Positions 10,850-37,841 of a stretch of DNA of 64,000 nt are shown piece by piece. The first letter of the stretch is position 1. Each line of letters starts with the position of its first letter. The translations under genes and the position numbers were made by a program. The notes beneath the pieces were generated by a model. It ran no database searches. It had not been told where the DNA came from and was given only the letters and a program-made list of their open reading frames with translations. Source of the stretch: a virus; the IMG/VR virus record IMGVR_UViG_3300028392_000041, positions 47,828-111,827 of that record. The stretch is one strand, 5' to 3'.

Positions 10850-11293
10850 TTAGAATGAATATTTCAAGCCAGCAATAACAGTACTACCATCTAAAGAACT
10901 AACTTTAGATTGTCCTGCTTGATAACGATAATCAGCAGTGAGAGCAACTTGTTTGCTTAATGGATAAGAAACACCAGCACCAACTAATGCAGCATAGCCA
11001 TCAGTTGTATTCTTTTGATCCAAGTAAGCAACTCCACCTTTAACTGCGATGGTCGCTGCACCAACTGTTGCAACATCATACGAACCAACTAAAGTGTACT
11101 TGTTCATGTCAGTTCCAGTTTTGTATTGATCAAATCCAGCAGTGATGCCTACTTTATCAAACTTCTGTCCAACAGTAATACCTACACCAGTACGATCTGT
11201 ATTGGCAGTATCGCGACTTGCGTTGATACCTAGTTCAACTGCTTGAACACCCATAGATGCCAATAATGCTGCGATTAAAATAACTTTTTTCAT
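10850..11293 (-). CDS. Outer-membrane beta-barrel protein
   Basis: 147 residues; AAGGGAATTAA upstream of the ATG. Cleavable signal peptide (MKKVILIAALLASMGVQA), then alternating amphipathic strands (VGITVGQKFDKVGITAGFD, YTLVGSYDV, VALTADYRYQAG) and a terminal Phe (GLKYSF), the BAM recognition signal. About eight strands are expected, like OmpA/OmpX/OmpW barrels. An encoded outer-membrane protein could alter the surface, for example by masking receptors. Located just downstream of the tmRNA terminator. Confidence 0.8.
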   Translation of the reverse strand: MKKVILIAALLASMGVQAVELGINASRDTANTDRTGVGITVGQKFDKVGITAGFDQYKTGTDMNKYTLVGSYDVATVGAATIAVKGGVAYLDQKNTTDGYAALVGAGVSYPLSKQVALTADYRYQAGQSKVSSLDGSTVIAGLKYSF

Positions 11294-11316
11294 TTAATTC
11301 CCTTTTTAAAAAATAT

Positions 11317-11347
11317 GGTAACTTATTCTGTTACGAGGAAAGTTACC
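11317..11347 (-). terminator. Rho-independent terminator of the tmRNA gene
   Basis: On the minus strand GGTAACTT-N15-AAGTTACC (8-bp perfect stem) followed by ATATTTTTT. Confidence 0.85.
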
Positions 11348-11605
11348 GAAACCCTAGTCAGCGATTAAGCTGCCAATGCGAACTGTGAGTCGTTTGCGTT
11401 TACTTTTGTTTAGTTTTAACATCTACTCTGATGGGTTGTCCACTTCTATACTTGTTACCCTGTCGAAACCTAGTCACCCCCATCAGAAGCACACCCATTA
11501 GAGCCCATAAAATGGTTTCTTTCATCTAACACATGCACTTCTGGTGGAGGTGGGGAGAATCGAACTCCCGTCCAGAATACTTTTCTAGTTGCTTCACACA
11601 ACCAT
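11348..11605 (-). ncRNA. ssrA: Circularly permuted (two-piece) tmRNA, tag ANDSQFALAA
   Basis: Read on the minus strand, the acceptor piece comes first: T-arm GGGAGTTCGATTCTCCC and an encoded CCA ending at 11542. A ~60-nt intervening segment follows. The coding piece begins GGGGGTG at 11481. GGGGGUG pairs over all 7 positions (one G-U) with CACCTCC of the acceptor piece, so the tRNA-like end is rebuilt from two pieces. The tag frame at 11397-11365 reads GCA AAC GAC TCA CAG TTC GCA TTG GCA GCT TAA. A GGGT...ACCC pairing upstream fits pseudoknot PK1, and D-loop-like CTAGGTTTCGACAG replaces the usual GGATTCGACGGG. It rescues stalled ribosomes with SmpB (host). No phage smpB is visible. The exact 5' end is inferred from the promoter. 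Confidence 0.9.
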
Positions 11606-11611
11606 TCACCT

Positions 11612-11640
11612 ATTATACATTATATATTTATTATAGTCAA
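11612..11640 (-). promoter_or_regulatory. Sigma70-type promoter of the tmRNA
   Basis: TTGACT-N17-TATAAT on the complement, placing the transcript start near 11605, just before the acceptor piece. Confidence 0.8.
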
Positions 11641-30806: not shown

Positions 30807-32000
30807 CTATTTAAAATAATTATATCCGAAGTTTGTATCTAATGTTACCAGATGTCTAGGCGACCAACCCCATGTTGGTTCAAGTGCCCAAAGTTTGTTT
30901 CTTGTATATCTCTGCATAACAGGGCGAATCTCTAAAAATTCTTTACACTTAAACAATTTCTCTGACTCTGATTTAATAACTCTCTGCCAAAATGGTGTAT
31001 CATAAACAGAACCACCATGGTAATGATATGATATCATGTTAGCAATTCCCTCTGCTGTTCTAACAAAATCTGCGTTGGCTTTCTCTTTATTGGTGTTACC
31101 CAATATGTAGTCGAATGCCAATCGATTGATTCTGTCGTATAGGAATCCAGAGTTTGCAAACAATGGTTCCATAAACGCAGCAGAGTTGCCATTCTTAATT
31201 ATTCTTTTGCCAATAAACTCTTTTTTCCAGTAGAAGTTAAAAGTATACTCTATTTTCTGTAGTTCGTCAAGTGGAACATCAATTTCTTTTGCAAAATTTT
31301 CTCTGGCTTGTTCAACTGTTGTATCATTGTCATTAAACAAGTAACCATAACTGGTTCTGCTCAGAAGAGGAATAGTAAACATCCAGCCATCCTTGGTTGC
31401 TGTATGTCCAGTCCATGTTGGTTCATATTTTGTTGCGATAACAGTTTTCTTGTTGTGCACCAAAGCATGGTTCACTGGCGCATCAGTTATAACAGTATAT
31501 CCTTCATAAGATTTCGGAAATCCAGTACAATCAATAACATACTCAAATTGATGTTCAACTCCATTGATTTTCATAGTAACATAATCATCACTATCAACCA
31601 TGTCTGTTACAGTTCCAGTAATTTCTTTAAATTTTTGACCCCAAAGTTTAGGGAATCGCTCAAACGCAAATTCTTTTAATTTAAATGTATTAAGGTGTAT
31701 TGCTGCTGTTCCATTTAATAGTGGATTCTTAAACTCATTACCACGCCAGTTCTTATAGTGTGTTCCATATTTTAATGTTCCATCTAACAATTCTGAATCG
31801 CGAATTAAATCAAAATCTAAACCCCATTCTATCGCATTCGTAAATGTTGGGTTGGTGCTTTCACCAATCCCGACGATGGGAATATTATTATCGTAGATTG
31901 AAGTAATTTCCCAGTCTTCGTTTAACCAAGAAAGAAAATGACATAGTGCCTGAATACCTGCGGTGCCAATCCCAATTACTGCCAGTTTTCTGTTATACAT
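30807..32000 (-). CDS. Flavin-dependent halogenase (tryptophan-halogenase family)
   Basis: 397 residues. N-terminal FAD site GIGTAGIQAL; family motif VGIGESTNPTFTNAIEWGLD; LKYGTHYKNW carries the Lys expected to bind HOX; WMFTIPLLSRTSYGYLF replaces the classical WxWxIP; C-terminal FMEPLFANSGFLYDRI. Shorter than bacterial tryptophan halogenases (~500-540) and close in size and context to the cyanophage halogenase VirX1, which is known to iodinate varied substrates. Needs a flavin reductase, presumably host. Flanked on both sides by 2OG oxygenases. Confidence 0.87.
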   Translation of the reverse strand: MYNRKLAVIGIGTAGIQALCHFLSWLNEDWEITSIYDNNIPIVGIGESTNPTFTNAIEWGLDFDLIRDSELLDGTLKYGTHYKNWRGNEFKNPLLNGTAAIHLNTFKLKEFAFERFPKLWGQKFKEITGTVTDMVDSDDYVTMKINGVEHQFEYVIDCTGFPKSYEGYTVITDAPVNHALVHNKKTVIATKYEPTWTGHTATKDGWMFTIPLLSRTSYGYLFNDNDTTVEQARENFAKEIDVPLDELQKIEYTFNFYWKKEFIGKRIIKNGNSAAFMEPLFANSGFLYDRINRLAFDYILGNTNKEKANADFVRTAEGIANMISYHYHGGSVYDTPFWQRVIKSESEKLFKCKEFLEIRPVMQRYTRNKLWALEPTWGWSPRHLVTLDTNFGYNYFK

Positions 32001-33626: not shown

Positions 33627-34251
33627 CGATTCTCATTGTGTTTATTGAACACTTAGTAAGCGCATAATTAAAACTTAATGAAATCCTACACTCATCTGTA
33701 TCTGTTGTAAATCTATCAGTACAATGTTCTAACCAACTGGGAAACAGAAGCATCAAAGCGAACTCTGGTTTGTATTTCCATGCCCTGTATGAGATTGGGG
33801 ATTCTTTTATAAAATTTCCATGCTGCATCATTTTTGCTGGTCTTGGATCTATAAAAGATATATCGCCTATATCTTTGTCAGCTGGAACATTTAAGTAAAC
33901 AACACCTGATAAAAATGAATTTGGGTGTTGATGTGTTCTGTGTCCATTTCCAGTATTTCCAATTTGAGAATTACTCCACATACAAGAAAGACTCAAAGAA
34001 TTTTGTTCTAGTCCCAATGCTTCTGTTGAGAATGATTGAACTTCATTATCAATGTGTTTAACTAATTCTTTAAATTGTGATAGTGTGTTTAGATTATCTT
34101 TGGTGCTTCCTGATAAACTTTTAGAAAGAGATTCTTTATCAAGAAGTTTTTGAACTTCTTGTTTTGCAGTTGAACATACACTATGATCTAGATTCGAGAT
34201 CCCAATAGGTGTAGCAAATAAATTATCAACTCTTCTATGCATAATATTCAA
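33622..34251 (-). CDS. 2-oxoglutarate/Fe(II) oxygenase-fold protein
   Basis: 209 residues, 2OG-FeII_Oxy_5-like. GNGHRTHQHPNSFLSGVVYL with ligand His residues, LLFPSWLEHCTDRF with distal His, ECRISLSFNYAL with Arg. Embedded in the tRNA cluster. Confidence 0.8.
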   Translation of the reverse strand: MNIMHRRVDNLFATPIGISNLDHSVCSTAKQEVQKLLDKESLSKSLSGSTKDNLNTLSQFKELVKHIDNEVQSFSTEALGLEQNSLSLSCMWSNSQIGNTGNGHRTHQHPNSFLSGVVYLNVPADKDIGDISFIDPRPAKMMQHGNFIKESPISYRAWKYKPEFALMLLFPSWLEHCTDRFTTDTDECRISLSFNYALTKCSINTMRIV

Positions 34252-34252
34252 T

Positions 34253-34397
34253 TAGTTTAGTGCTATCGTGCCGATTTGCCAAAAATGTAGCTAACACTGG
34301 CGAGCGAGTGGCAGTTATATCAGACAGTGTCAGTCGCACCCTAACTGTCGAGTAGTCATAGCGTCCTATGACGATTACCTTGATAACACTAAACTAA
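34253..34397 (-). ncRNA. Structured RNA directly 3' of tRNA-Gly(TCC)
   Basis: Starting right after the tRNA-Gly CCA, TTAGTTTAGTGTTATC pairs with GATAGCACTAAACTAA at the far end (16 bp, one G-U). Inside are GTCATAG-GACG-CTATGAC (7 bp), GACAGT...ACTGTC (6 bp) and smaller stems. No ORF. Strand inferred from the tRNA operon. Confidence 0.6.
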
Positions 34398-34471
34398 TGG
34401 AGCGGGATATCAGAATCGAACTGATGACGAAAGATTGGAAATCTCTAGTTTTGCCATTAAACTAATCCCGC
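34398..34471 (-). tRNA. tRNA-Gly(TCC)
   Basis: GCGGGAT/ATCCCGC acceptor, anticodon loop TTTCCAA, CCA encoded. Confidence 0.92.
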
Positions 34472-34714
34472 AAATGCTTCCTGTCCGTCGTGGTAATTAT
34501 AGTACATCAGGATTTAGTTGGTTGTCTCTCATATCCATCACGCATACCCTCCACCCACTCGCCACGGACAGAACTCTCGTGTTGCCAACGCTGGTTAGGT
34601 CGACCCATGATTTTACTCATGCCCTATTCAAAGGGAGAACCATCCTACTGATAGCCAATCAGTTTCTCTCATGCGGATCACATTAGCAGTGGTTAGCTGC
34701 GAGCCCATATAGTA
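34472..34714 (-). other. Transcribed, structured gap with a doubtful 37-codon ORF
   Basis: Downstream of promoter 34715. It contains hairpins CTGAT-TGGCT-ATCAG and CATGA-GTAAAA-TCATG and a long-range CTGTCCGT/CGGACAG pairing. An ORF at 34620-34507 (start MSKIMGRPNQRWQHE, end ERQPTKS) has no convincing RBS. Either a small gene with structured leader or another RNA. Confidence 0.4.
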
Positions 34715-34743
34715 ATTATACCCGACTTATACTAAAATGTCAA
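34715..34743 (-). promoter_or_regulatory. Sigma70-type promoter inside the tRNA cluster
   Basis: TTGACA-N17-TATAAT on the complement. Confidence 0.8.
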
Positions 34744-34759
34744 ATCGAATGCAATTATT

Positions 34760-34835
34760 TGGAGTAGGTGACAGGAATCGAACCTGCATTATTCAGATTT
34801 GCAATCTGCTGCCTAGCCATTCAGCGCACACCTAC
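34760..34835 (-). tRNA. tRNA-Cys(GCA)
   Basis: GTAGGTG/CACCTAC acceptor, anticodon loop TTGCAAA. The 5' end overlaps the HNH gene stop by 4 nt. Confidence 0.92.
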
Positions 34836-35386
34836 ATTAACCTTACTCTGCTGTGTTTAGGAACACCCGATAACAAGTAATCCATTTGATCAGCAAGAAT
34901 TTGTCTGTTTTCTAAAATCATTCTTTCGTAGTGGTTTGGTTCGTACGGAACATATAAAAGTTCCATATTTGCTTTCTCTAGTGACTTGCTACCTTTTTTG
35001 GCATTGCACTTCAAACAAGCAGTAACCACATTCATCCAGATATTCAGACCACCCTTTGAAACAGGATGAATATGATCTCTAGACAAATGACCAGAACCAT
35101 GTACATCACCGCAGTAAGCGCACATGTGTCTGTCTCTACCGAACAATGTTTTGTTTGTTAGAACAACTTTACCAATTCTTTCGATAGAGGTATTACCTTT
35201 TACGGCAATGATTGATTTAGTTTCTAGTACTGACTGTGTCCCATCGTTACGGTAGCCACCACGGTATGTCGCGATAGTTTCACCAAGCGACCAAACAACT
35301 TGGTCTTTGGCGTGGTAACAAATTGCATCATCAAAATTTACCCATGCTCTTGGTAAACCTGATGAGTCCAGTGCTAGAACATTCAT
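34832..35386 (-). CDS. HNH endonuclease
   Basis: 184 residues. Zinc-type HNH: CAYCG, LSRDHIHPVSKGG (the catalytic DH), NIWMNVVTACLKCN with the final Cys pair. The N-terminal domain ALDSSGLPRAWVNFDDAICY is shared with cyanobacterial and phage HNH proteins. Possibly a free-standing mobile endonuclease in the tRNA cluster. Confidence 0.85.
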   Translation of the reverse strand: MNVLALDSSGLPRAWVNFDDAICYHAKDQVVWSLGETIATYRGGYRNDGTQSVLETKSIIAVKGNTSIERIGKVVLTNKTLFGRDRHMCAYCGDVHGSGHLSRDHIHPVSKGGLNIWMNVVTACLKCNAKKGSKSLEKANMELLYVPYEPNHYERMILENRQILADQMDYLLSGVPKHSRVRLM

Positions 35387-35407
35387 ATCATTCCCTTTCT
35401 TGTTCTA

Positions 35408-35415
35408 CTATTTAG
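35408..35415 (-). promoter_or_regulatory. Late-promoter-like element CTAAATAG
   Basis: 22 nt upstream of the HNH start. Confidence 0.4.
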
Positions 35416-35417
35416 AT

Positions 35418-35494
35418 TGGTGTCCCCCAAGGGATTCGAACCCTCATCTTATCAATTATGAGTTGACAGCATTGACCAGTTATGCTAAAGGAAC
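35418..35494 (-). tRNA. tRNA with CAT anticodon (Met elongator or Ile2)
   Basis: Anticodon loop CTCATAA, which both elongator tRNA-Met and lysidine-modified tRNA-Ile2 use. Acceptor GTTCCTT/GGGGGAC has several G-U pairs. Confidence 0.85.
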
Positions 35495-35496
35495 AT

Positions 35497-35573
35497 TGGT
35501 GCGGATACCGAGACTCGAACTCGGAGAACTCAGATTTTAAGTCTGATATGTATACCAATTCCATCATATCCGC
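35497..35573 (-). tRNA. tRNA-Leu(TAA)
   Basis: GCGGATA/TATCCGC acceptor, anticodon loop CTTAAAA, CCA encoded. Confidence 0.9.
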
Positions 35574-35578
35574 AAACT

Positions 35579-35653
35579 TGGTGCCCCGAGAGGGAATTGA
35601 ACCCCCATAATGACTTTAGAAGAATCATGTCCTATCCATTGAACGATCGGGGC
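35579..35653 (-). tRNA. tRNA-Arg(TCT)
   Basis: GCCCCGA/TCGGGGC acceptor, anticodon loop CTTCTAA. Confidence 0.9.
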
Positions 35654-35660
35654 AATACAC

Positions 35661-35750
35661 TGGTGGAAGATCAGGGAGTCGAACCCTGTGAGCGTATTAC
35701 TACACTCTACGGATTAGCAATCCGCTGCATTACCATCCTGCCCATCTTCC
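35661..35750 (-). tRNA. tRNA-Ser(GCT)
   Basis: 90 nt with long variable arm, anticodon loop TTGCTAA. Confidence 0.92.
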
Positions 35751-35755
35751 TAACT

Positions 35756-35829
35756 TGGCATCCCAGCAGGGACTTGAACCCCGACTAATAGTTTTGGAGA
35801 CTATCGTGCTGCCATTACACTACTGAGAT
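35756..35829 (-). tRNA. tRNA-Trp(CCA)
   Basis: ATCTCAG/CTGGGAT acceptor, anticodon loop CTCCAAA, G73. Confidence 0.9.
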
Positions 35830-35834
35830 ATATT

Positions 35835-35908
35835 TGGTGCCCCATGACAGAATCGAACTGCCGTAACCTGATTACAAAACAGGTGTAATACCATTATACT
35901 AATAGGGC
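35835..35908 (-). tRNA. tRNA-Thr(TGT)
   Basis: Anticodon loop TTTGTAA, CCA encoded. Confidence 0.88.
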
Positions 35909-35916
35909 AAAAATTT

Positions 35917-35991
35917 TGGTGGAGGATGGGAGGATCGAACTCCCACTTCATGCTTGCAAAGCACATGTGCTCCCATTATCACTAATCCCCC
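35917..35991 (-). tRNA. tRNA-Ala(TGC)
   Basis: GGGGGAT/ATCCTCC acceptor, anticodon loop TTTGCAA. The G3-U70 position is present as G-T in the third pair, the alanine identity element. Confidence 0.9.
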
Positions 35992-35997
35992 AAAACA

Positions 35998-36074
<77 letters not shown>

Positions 36075-36082
36075 AATAAAAC

Positions 36083-36157
36083 TGGCTCCGAAGGCAGGGA
36101 TCGAACCTGCGACCAATTGATTAACAGTCAACTGCACTACCGCTGTGCTACTTCGGA
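36083..36157 (-). tRNA. tRNA-Asn(GTT)
   Basis: TCCGAAG/CTTCGGA acceptor, anticodon loop CTGTTAA. Confidence 0.92.
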
Positions 36158-36163
36158 ATATAC

Positions 36164-36238
36164 TGGAGCAGGATATCGGATTTGAACCGATGACATTTTC
36201 GTTGGCAACGAAACATTCTACCACTGAATTAATCCTGC
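36164..36238 (-). tRNA. tRNA-Gly(GCC)
   Basis: GCAGGAT/ATCCTGC acceptor, anticodon loop TTGCCAA. Confidence 0.92.
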
Positions 36239-36247
36239 ATAAAAACT

Positions 36248-36322
36248 TGGTACCTTGTGACAGATTCGAACTGCCGACCTTCTCCGTGTAAAAGAGACAT
36301 TCTACCACTGAAATAACAAGGC
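36248..36322 (-). tRNA. tRNA-Val(TAC)
   Basis: GCCTTGT/ACAAGGT acceptor, anticodon loop TTTACAC. Confidence 0.9.
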
Positions 36323-36325
36323 ATT

Positions 36326-36402
36326 TGGTACCGAGGGTGGGACTCGAACCCACAAGATTTAGTTTCTAAGACTAACATGTATACCAATTCCATCACCTCG
36401 GC
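36326..36402 (-). tRNA. tRNA-Leu(TAG)
   Basis: GCCGAGG/CCTCGGT acceptor, anticodon loop CTTAGAA. Confidence 0.9.
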
Positions 36403-36410
36403 ATTAACTA

Positions 36411-36488
36411 TGGTACCCCACCCCTGATTCGAACAGGGATACCTCTTCCTTTTGAGAGAAGCGACTTTACCAATTTGTCCAGTGGGGC
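36411..36488 (-). tRNA. tRNA-Leu(CAA)
   Basis: GCCCCAC/GTGGGGT acceptor, anticodon loop CTCAAAA. Confidence 0.9.
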
Positions 36489-36490
36489 AC

Positions 36491-36565
36491 TGGTACTCGG
36501 TGATGGTTACGATCCATCTACAGCTGCCTTATCAAGACAGTACCTCACCATTCGGTCTACCGAGT
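36491..36565 (-). tRNA. tRNA-Ile(GAT)
   Basis: ACTCGGT/ACCGAGT acceptor, anticodon loop TTGATAA. The T-loop reads ATCGTAA, so positions 54 and 58 are A and T in place of the usual T54-A58. Confidence 0.85.
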
Positions 36566-36571
36566 ATAATA

Positions 36572-36660
36572 TGGAGGAAGGATGGTAGAATCGAACTCCA
36601 TGCGCTTTCGCACACCTTCTGCTTTCAAAACAGAGTCCAGCCCAGCTGAATTAACCTTCC
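36572..36660 (-). tRNA. tRNA-Ser(TGA)
   Basis: 89 nt with long variable arm, anticodon loop TTTGAAA. Confidence 0.92.
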
Positions 36661-36665
36661 GTATC

Positions 36666-36741
36666 TGGTAGTGATAGTAGGATTCGAACCTACGATAACT
36701 TGCGTATGAAGCAAGCGCATTACCACTTTGCTATATCACTA
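36666..36741 (-). tRNA. tRNA-Met(CAT)
   Basis: TAGTGAT/ATCACTA acceptor, anticodon loop TTCATAC, stem CTTGC/GCAAG. Probably the elongator. Confidence 0.88.
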
Positions 36742-36750
36742 AAAACTTTT

Positions 36751-36824
36751 TGGGGTGACTAGTGGGAGTTGAACCCACACGAAGAGAATCACAATCTCTG
36801 ATGCTACCATTACATCATAGTCAC
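36751..36824 (-). tRNA. tRNA-His(GTG)
   Basis: GTGACTA/TAGTCAC acceptor with C73, anticodon loop TTGTGAT. No encoded G-1 (the base before is T). Confidence 0.9.
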
Positions 36825-36837
36825 ACCAAAAAGTTCT

Positions 36838-36911
36838 TGGTAGGGGCACAGAGAATCGAACTCTGATTTGTTGGTTAAAAGCCGACTACTTTTCCGTTAA
36901 GTTATACCCCC
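36838..36911 (-). tRNA. tRNA-Lys(TTT)
   Basis: GGGGGTA/TGCCCCT acceptor, anticodon loop CTTTTAA. Its 5' part also encodes the end of the 36886 ORF. Confidence 0.88.
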
Positions 36912-37026
36912 GAATCTTATCTAACCTGCGCAATGCTTTGTTTGTTTTGCGATGCGCACCAGCTTTTCTAAACAATGCCAGAACAACGAACTGGTTGCGT
37001 TGCTTGGCGATCATCTTTCGCTTCAT
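36886..37026 (-). CDS. Small basic protein overlapping tRNA-Lys
   Basis: 46 residues with AGGAG 7 nt before the ATG. MKRKMIAKQRNQFVVLALFR then KAGAHRKTNKALRRLDK. The C-terminus reads into the tRNA-Lys gene by 26 nt. Strongly basic; RNA binding would be a guess. Confidence 0.6.
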   Translation of the reverse strand: MKRKMIAKQRNQFVVLALFRKAGAHRKTNKALRRLDKIRGYNLTEK

Positions 37027-37044
37027 CGTTCTTCTCCTAAAAAT

Positions 37045-37120
37045 TGGTACCCCATAAAGGAATCGAACCTCTACCTCTGCGTTCGTAGCACAGTATGATT
37101 ATCCATTTCACCAATGGGGC
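37045..37120 (-). tRNA. tRNA-Arg(ACG)
   Basis: GCCCCAT/ATGGGGT acceptor, anticodon loop CTACGAA; needs A34-to-inosine editing by host TadA. Confidence 0.9.
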
Positions 37121-37126
37121 ATAATA

Positions 37127-37202
37127 TGGTACCGAGAGTAGGACTTGAACCTACCACACCTTGTGCTTCAAACAAGTGCTCTACCAGATGAGCTACCTCG
37201 GC
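37127..37202 (-). tRNA. tRNA-Phe(GAA)
   Basis: GCCGAGG/CTCGGT acceptor, anticodon loop TTGAAGC. Confidence 0.9.
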
Positions 37203-37210
37203 AAAAATTT

Positions 37211-37285
37211 TGGCGACTCGTAGGGGAATCGAACCCCTGTATCCTGTTAGACAGACAGGTATAATGACCATTATATGAACGAGCC
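37211..37285 (-). tRNA. tRNA-Asp(GTC)
   Basis: GGCTCGT/ACGAGTC acceptor, anticodon loop CTGTCTA. Confidence 0.9.
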
Positions 37286-37292
37286 AAAAAAC

Positions 37293-37381
37293 TGGTGGAA
37301 GTGGTAGGATTCGAACCTACAGCGTTTCTTATGTGGCGGATTTACAGTCCGTTGCCTTCAACCAATTCAGCACACACTTCC
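37293..37381 (-). tRNA. tRNA-Tyr(GTA)
   Basis: 89 nt with long variable arm, anticodon loop CTGTAAA. Confidence 0.92.
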
Positions 37382-37388
37382 AAAACTT

Positions 37389-37464
37389 TGGTACACCATG
37401 GGGGAATCGAACCCCTCCTTTTGTCTGTGAAAGAGACATGTCCTAACCGATAGACGAATGGTGC
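37389..37464 (-). tRNA. tRNA-Glu(TTC)
   Basis: GCACCAT/ATGGTGT acceptor, anticodon loop CTTTCAC. Confidence 0.9.
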
Positions 37465-37703
37465 ATATACCAAACTAAAATACACTGGGATGATCAGCAA
37501 CAACCATCACCCGATGGCTAACCACGCTGTCGTCCAGCGATTGGTCGCTTCTCACATTACATTCCAACTTTCTCCAGCGTGACCACCGTATCCGTCTTAC
37601 GACTTCGTTTCCATCTTTCGTGTAATCTAGCGAGCGATACTCCGTCGAGTATCCTGAACTCCTAGATCACCTACTGGTTTTGGTAACCCAATGTATTTTA
37701 GTT
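37465..37703 (-). ncRNA. Structured RNA between tRNA-Gln and tRNA-Glu
   Basis: About 240 nt without an ORF. The ends form a 15-bp perfect stem (CCAAACTAAAATACA with its complement at 37692-37706, using the CCA of tRNA-Gln), extended by TGGG/CCCA after a C-A mismatch. Inside: GATACTC-GACG-GAGTATC, CCATC-GGGT-GATGG, CACGCTG/CAGCGTG and ATCTAG/CTAGAT. Strand inferred from the flanking tRNAs. Confidence 0.6.
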
Positions 37704-37777
37704 TGGCAGGGGTACTTGGAATCGAACCAAGAACGACGGAATCAAAATCCGTTGTGATACCACTTCACTATACCCCA
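37704..37777 (-). tRNA. tRNA-Gln(TTG)
   Basis: TGGGGTA/TACCCCT acceptor, anticodon loop TTTTGAT. First tRNA of the operon. Confidence 0.9.
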
Positions 37778-37812
37778 ACAACTATCGCGAAATTTTTAAA
37801 GAGCAGGATTGA

Positions 37813-37841
37813 ATTATACATCGAAACGAAATATAAGTCAA
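37813..37841 (-). promoter_or_regulatory. Sigma70-type promoter of the tRNA operon
   Basis: TTGACT-N17-TATAAT on the complement, ~30 nt upstream of tRNA-Gln. Confidence 0.85.

Follow-up and report, generated by a model that had tools for sequence, protein, structure and literature searches.

The 64,000-nucleotide stretch of viral DNA analyzed here (the window; part of the 111,827-base IMG/VR virus record IMGVR_UViG_3300028392_000041) carries a structured noncoding RNA, designated RNA B, between two tRNA genes. RNA B represents a real and previously uncatalogued family, found in dozens of phages that have not been cultivated, giant ones among them, and its conserved fold is strongly supported by covariation. 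Our main reading, to which we assign a probability of about 0.6, is that RNA B is a stable noncoding RNA derived from a polycistronic tRNA precursor, freed at its terminal stalk and acting in trans. The RNA and its immediate surroundings are organized as follows (window coordinates):

37704..37777, minus strand: tRNA-Gln(TTG), called by ARAGORN; its CCA is the base of the stalk
37470..37706, minus strand: RNA B, structured noncoding RNA of 237 nt, with significant fold, 47-member alignment and covariation
37687..37706, minus strand: 5' arm of stalk P1 (inverted repeat), beginning with the CCA of tRNA-Gln
37470..37489, minus strand: 3' arm of stalk P1, ending in UGG
37636..37653, minus strand: 7-bp hairpin capped by GACG (loop 37646..37643), helix backed by covariation
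37525..37539, minus strand: second hairpin with loop GACGA (loop 37534..37530), backed by covariation
37574..37677, minus strand: proposed helix P3, CCAGU (37677..37673) with GCUGG (37578..37574), invariant in all relatives
37389..37464, minus strand: tRNA-Glu(TTC), called by ARAGORN, 5 nt past the stalk

RNA B fills the gap from tRNA-Gln to tRNA-Glu, and its first three bases are the CCA of tRNA-Gln. The sequence-only reading had placed a structured RNA of about 240 nt on the 3' end of tRNA-Gln; its coordinates proved right, with RNA B running from 37706 to 37470 on the minus strand. The minimum free energy of this strand was −92.2 kcal/mol, compared to −61.3 (sd 4.1) for shuffled sequences (z = −7.49; none of 200 shuffles as low). 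The plus strand of the same stretch also gave a fold signal (z = −6.19), because inverted repeats fold in both orientations. All 27 tRNAs called in the window by ARAGORN, as well as one permuted tmRNA, lie on the minus strand; RNA B was therefore assigned to this strand and a plus-strand reading was dropped. The perfect 15-bp terminal stem that had been proposed to include the tRNA CCA was recovered as 15 Watson-Crick pairs counted from the CCA end, within a P1 stalk of 20 bp that continues with one U-G pair and four more pairs. RNA B was also considered as a coding gene and rejected as such: the copies share no long closed ATG frame (median 23 aa, maximum 57) and differ in length by single bases.

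Several other features of the tRNA array were recorded. A tRNA missed by ARAGORN lies at 36576-36660 (minus strand); it scored 40.6 bits with the Rfam tRNA-Sec model (cut-off 47) and by eye resembles a tRNA-Ser with anticodon TGA. A small reading frame is located at 36912-37040 (minus strand), between tRNA-Arg and tRNA-Lys, in a gap of similar length in the window and in two other loci (L008 and L132). Near the array, 30807-32000 (minus strand) encodes a tryptophan-halogenase-like protein (phrog_2928, E = 1.8e-68).

Loci of relatives were obtained by a dCMP-deaminase search (80 loci) and by three pattern scans (4, 28 and 82 viral stretches, overlapping). A profile search of these IMG/VR phage loci identified 52 distinct copies of RNA B, 47 of them full length, including that of the window; the alignment comprised these 47, and the five partial copies were left out. 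Full copies are 215–267 nt long, with a minimum pairwise identity of 39% and a median of 63% (52–86% between the window copy and the others). The B-bearing contigs include two of 331,654 and 352,754 bases. The window phage encodes proteins with matches to the ribonucleotide reductase, ATP-dependent DNA ligase and dCMP deaminase families. Among the matches listed, the closest named ligases (∼40% identity) were those of Vibrio phage nt-1 and similar records, and of Synechococcus phage BUCT-ZZ01.

The core of RNA B is constant and comprises CCAGUAGG together with the GMCG and GACG loops. The loop of the 7-bp hairpin is GACG in 37 of the 47 copies and GCCG in the other 10, while that of the second hairpin is GACG plus one base in all 47. 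Many B loci were chosen via patterns taken from conserved core strings (one scan, yielding 4 stretches, used the GACG hairpin itself), so that conservation of these strings is there partly by construction. The string CCAGUAGG was invariant in the first 14 aligned copies, 12 of which had been found via the neighboring protein, in the dCMP-deaminase search.

The consensus structure of B was written by hand from RNAalifold output and inspection, and was scored on the MAFFT alignment. The input to RNAalifold comprised 44 of the 47 rows, with L113, L131 and L137 omitted because their 3' parts align badly. In the MAFFT alignment 89.3% of the cells pair, and changes on both sides were found in 49 of the 69 pairs, compared to 36.6 (sd 2.0) in shuffles, none of 500 as high, and 20–24 when the structure was slid along the alignment. 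The covariation score was 0.396, against 0.177 for shuffled and at most 0.100 for slid controls; the slid control favors the structure somewhat, since the structure was derived from the same sequences, whereas the breadth of pair types (e.g., GC, AU, UA and CG at one hairpin pair) is independent of this bias. A model-fitted alignment, which leans to the structure and whose 50 rows include one weak 89-nt match consisting mostly of stalk, gave 93.8% paired cells, 54 of 69 pairs changed on both sides and a score of 0.474. Within the MAFFT alignment, both-side changes occurred in 12 of 18 pairs of the P1 stalk and in 4 of 5 pairs of the second hairpin, in which 100% of the cells are paired; helix P3 is unproven because it is invariant in all relatives. 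The suggestion that such RNAs form a family is thus strongly supported for B by covariation across 47 full-length copies.

An Rfam search, for example against phage RNAs near tRNAs, had been proposed as a check. With Rfam 15, the window at gathering score returned tRNA and tmRNA families only, region 34200-37710 at E ≤ 10 returned nothing overlapping RNA B or the second RNA described below (RNA A), and five further B-bearing loci at gathering score returned tRNA only. A tmRNA would be recognized by a tRNA-like domain and a tag reading frame; B gave no tmRNA match. These searches also bear on the idea of B as a ribozyme, or as a mobile, intron-like element that has inserted behind tRNA genes. 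B does occur behind different tRNAs, as do some of the cassette interiors described below, but it is placed after the CCA and not inside a gene, and neither self-cleaving ribozymes nor group I/II introns matched it at E ≤ 10 in the window. Undescribed catalysts are conceivable. As a whole, we consider a ribozyme or intron-like identity of B very improbable.

Searches of named phages and bacteria were likewise negative within their scope. A covariance model built from B (R1) found no B in the whole T4 record at E ≤ 0.1, and B was not found by model in the records of T4, KVP40, BUCT-ZZ01, XacN1 and Aeh1. In blastn, one IMG/VR copy of B had no match in named phages, and the window copy gave only matches of 22–24 nt (E 0.2–9); BLAST of a 1301-nt stretch around the B of L110 returned tRNA-sized matches among the best 20 of 60 records. 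A pattern scan of bacterial genomes gave 14 stretches, none of them a B. With strict filters and no positive control, none of 296 Burkholderiales genomes yielded a B, nor did the single Limnohabitans genome searched. A survey of open-access literature by title and start of abstract returned no description of RNA B or of CCA-anchored stalks.

Among the 52 copies, 39 are located directly behind a tRNA (Glu in 31 cases, Gln in 6, Ile in 2), all 39 with the same geometry; four have a tRNA-Cys 36–38 nt upstream and nine have no called tRNA upstream. The attachment to tRNA-Gln described in the sequence-only reading thus applies to the window; across the relatives, the upstream tRNA is mostly tRNA-Glu. 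As for the nine copies with no called tRNA, one (L152) starts at an apparent tRNA end, two (L103 and L107) are preceded by a terminator-like stretch, and in six (L099, L110, L111, L126, L129 and L161) the preceding leader is promoter-like and, in most of them, also boxA-like.

The second RNA of the window is also placed directly behind a tRNA:

34246..34401, minus strand: RNA A, directly behind tRNA-Gly(TCC); fold z = −4.63, 26-member alignment and covariation

RNA A was gathered with its own profile, which gave 24 full-length distinct copies and partial matches in large-phage loci; 26 sequences were aligned. Both-side changes were found in 33 of 51 pairs (shuffles 21.1, 0/500 as high; slid 3–10), and the pair-type count was not above that of shuffles (159/500). 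The hairpin loop is GACG in 19 of the 26. In the 28 A loci listed, A follows a called tRNA in 9, an uncalled tRNA-like end in 2 and RNA B directly in 13, while 4, all from large phages, show neither. The 7-bp GACG-capped hairpin and the position right after a tRNA, noted from the sequence for both RNAs, are indeed common to A and B in the window. Their description as two RNAs of one type is not supported as homology: over the window at E ≤ 1, R1 matched B alone and not A, there was no cross match between the two RNAs, and the comparison of folds from which a common core had been sought revealed that the folds differ. A common A/B fold was therefore rejected. A and B are two families of the same architecture, with a CCA-anchored stalk, a GACG hairpin and a place behind a tRNA.

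Ahead of tRNA-Gly and RNA A, region 34480-34743 (minus strand) has a 12/12 promoter match, with a leader and then a small reading frame behind it. A candidate third RNA at 34472-34759 was rejected because shuffled sequences fold about as well (z = −0.27); the stretch holds the small frame behind the strong promoter match.

The end of the closing helix in A and B tends to follow the neighboring CCA, with exceptions. B copies directly behind a tRNA end in UGG in 35 of 38 readable cases (one of the 39 is cut; the exceptions are L023, L112 and L132), and the same end is present in 8 of the 9 A copies that follow a called tRNA; only the window A differs, with UGA. When A lies behind B, the UGG end occurs in 0 of 13 copies and most pair GGUAUUAG with CUAAUAUC instead. 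For B with no tRNA in front, the stalk end is CUA/UAG in five contigs, whereas L103 and L107, with no called tRNA in front, have CCA/UGG; in the large-phage contigs of this type, the B core is kept behind a promoter-like sequence and boxA-like leader, and the stalk sequence is different, with no CCA. Many A and B copies are kin by descent, so these counts do not represent independent events.

Sequences resembling transcription signals precede tRNA-Gln in the window:

37813..37841, minus strand: sigma-70-like promoter TTGACT-17-TATAAT before tRNA-Gln, matching 11/12 consensus positions (consensus match only)
37793..37805, minus strand: boxA-like leader TGCTCTTTAAAAA, identified by sequence

The fetched phage loci contain the motif G[CT]TCTTTAAAAA at 28 distinct sites, 27 of which have a tRNA start within 320 nt downstream (tRNA-Gln at 20 of these 27); the leaders are probably homologous, so the 27 sites are not independent. 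Five scrambled versions of the motif gave 3 sites, none near a tRNA. In the window operon B has an early position, just after these promoter-like and boxA-like sequences, and it is also early in the large-phage contigs, as would be expected if it were a cis-acting transcription element, for example an antitermination RNA carrying polymerase through a long tRNA operon. In most relatives, though, B is located mid-operon behind Cys and Glu tRNAs, and A occurs behind B and elsewhere; we regard this role as improbable.

The stalk design is wider than A and B, as these phages carry many other short and variable RNAs on similar stalks behind the CCA ends of tRNAs. In the fetched loci, whose choice enriched the sample of tRNA ends, a stem near the CCA with a score of at least 13 was found at 122 of 1369 distinct tRNA 3' ends, compared to 2 with shuffled downstream sequence. 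A set of 116 stems (score ≥12, start within 2 nt) comprised 35 B, 9 A, 9 that enclose the next tRNA and 63 other RNAs of 66–217 nt, of which 60 start with CCA and end with TGG. The 9 enclosing stems are of the extended tRNA-His acceptor type. In the window, the flanks of tRNA-His (36738-36841) lengthen its acceptor stem by ∼10 bp and its CCA pairs with an upstream UGG, as in several relatives.

A scan for a single stalk form with 28–58 nt inside gave at least 120 stretches, with at least 128 instances, at least 104 distinct interiors and at least 77 clusters. Among the matches listed, 82 of 128 small-cassette instances lie behind a called tRNA, most commonly Lys(ttt) (53). The interiors as a whole are weakly structured (mean z = −0.49 over 161 distinct ones). 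In one cassette cluster (L195, L238, L241, L247 and L276), the interior looks structured by eye, with compensatory changes, behind different tRNAs.

The permuted tmRNA of the window, a gene separate from B, also carries a stalk:

11274-11634, minus strand: permuted tmRNA, best match beta_tmRNA, tag ANDSQFALAA
11484..11543, minus strand: CCA-anchored stem of the tmRNA spacer; by itself it folds no more stably than shuffled sequence (z = −1.46)

The best match to a betaproteobacterial model hints at the host. Eight distinct permuted tmRNAs were present in the loci, and 5 of the 6 readable spacers, including that of the window, form a stem at the CCA or 1–2 bases inside it.

As the same stalk surrounds unrelated interiors, the stalk alone is no sign of a functional cargo. 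Its presence around such diverse interiors and in the tmRNA spacers would suit a role of B as a mere intervening spacer, a folding and cleavage element that aids maturation of the flanking tRNAs in cis and is then degraded, as is the permuted tmRNA spacer. Against this, the interiors of B and A are conserved in both sequence and fold, with many compensatory changes, in B down to 39% identity, and B is kept with no tRNA in front in several large-phage contigs. We judge the spacer role unlikely, although it is the strongest competitor of a trans-acting RNA B.

A further possibility is that stalked RNAs serve as decoys or shields against host defenses that act on tRNAs, some of them at the CCA end: Cas12a3 cleaves the tRNA CCA end (PMC12851939) and toxSAS enzymes pyrophosphorylate it (PMC11559606). 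A T-arm-like motif occurs in 9 of the 161 distinct cassette interiors (shuffled mean 0.015), in one because the interior spans a whole tRNA. Yet B has no tRNA-like match, and any masking would be temporary, since mature tRNAs must expose the CCA. Such a decoy or shield function appears improbable.

In 11 tRNA regions of named phages, 5 of 134 tRNA ends had stems with a score of at least 13, compared to 1 in shuffles, and only the stem of Serratia phage CHI14 starts at the CCA. CHI14 is a cultured T4-like phage with the same kind of stalk behind tRNA-Gln; in an alignment of 8 phages around it, inspected by eye, 4 have a stem that starts at the CCA, and in the other 4 it begins 7 nt further on. 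No CCA-anchored stalk was seen in the T4 RNA D/C region (tRNA-Arg).

The nearest known kinds are the RNAs of phage tRNA islands, and we therefore describe B as a new family of that kind with a distinct architecture. GOLLD and ROOL are complex phage noncoding RNAs of function not yet established, often found near tRNA islands; both are among the Rfam families, with a ROOL copy of 659 nt and GOLLD often over 800 nt (PMC12286853). B resembles them as a complex noncoding RNA near phage tRNAs, but at ∼240 nt (215–267 nt across copies) it is below the ∼600–800 nt or more of these RNAs, which form multimeric cages; it has no Rfam match, and the CCA of a tRNA is part of its closing helix. A position directly behind a tRNA in a phage tRNA cluster is likewise found for T4 RNA C and RNA D (species 1 and 2 RNA), whose roles are given as unknown (PMC3014915, PMC9697503, PMC12685909). 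They are small stable RNAs, as B would be; unlike B, they have neither an R1 match nor a CCA-anchored stalk at tRNA-Arg.

Two processing systems offer parallels to the stalk. Transcripts of permuted tmRNA are cut into two pieces by tRNA-processing enzymes (PMC11915505); as with B, a segment runs from a CCA end to the 5' end of the next RNA, with a similar stalk in these phages, but this short spacer is not retained in the mature RNA, while B has a large conserved core. In pre-rRNA, active 30S subunits require a leader-trailer helix of over 17 bp; RNase III acts in this helix, which also matters independently of RNase III (PMC10250234). There, too, a boxA leader precedes a structured RNA that is enclosed by a long terminal helix, although the product is a ribosomal RNA and not a tRNA-flanked RNA.

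On the main reading, RNA B would be transcribed as one unit with the tRNAs in a polycistronic precursor, in which the CCA of the upstream tRNA forms the first three stalk pairs, so that this tRNA end would be masked until the precursor is cut. RNase P, the usual enzyme for tRNA 5' ends, would free that of tRNA-Glu. Together with a cut at the base of the stalk, for which RNase III and a tRNA 3' nuclease are candidates, this would release tRNA-Gln, RNA B and tRNA-Glu. The stalk would thus act as an excision and folding element, and the released, stalk-capped RNA B may act in trans through its conserved core and GACG-capped hairpins. Excision of B at the stalk is suggested by analogy with the permuted tmRNA (PMC11915505) and pre-rRNA helix (PMC10250234) precedents.

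More tentatively, and with less confidence than for B itself, a modular CCA-stalk RNA system can be envisaged. Noncoding RNAs ranging from variable cassettes of ∼66 nt to the conserved A and B would lie behind the CCA ends of tRNAs or tmRNA acceptors, with exchangeable helices masking the CCA until a specific cut. A single processing event would then mature the tRNA and release a phage RNA effector, and the interiors would diversify like cargo.

That phage tRNA clusters give rise to stable RNAs of no assigned role, T4 RNA C and D among them, has long been known. RNA B extends this list by a compact, well-supported family for which there are now a consensus structure and a search model, along with a testable rule, namely that the helix end tracks the neighboring CCA. 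The same kind of stalk in the cultured phage CHI14 makes the processing question accessible in a laboratory phage. Should the stalk prove to be an excision element, this would account for the presence of other RNAs in tRNA arrays, link them to permuted tmRNA and pre-rRNA processing, and provide a route to many more phage RNAs.
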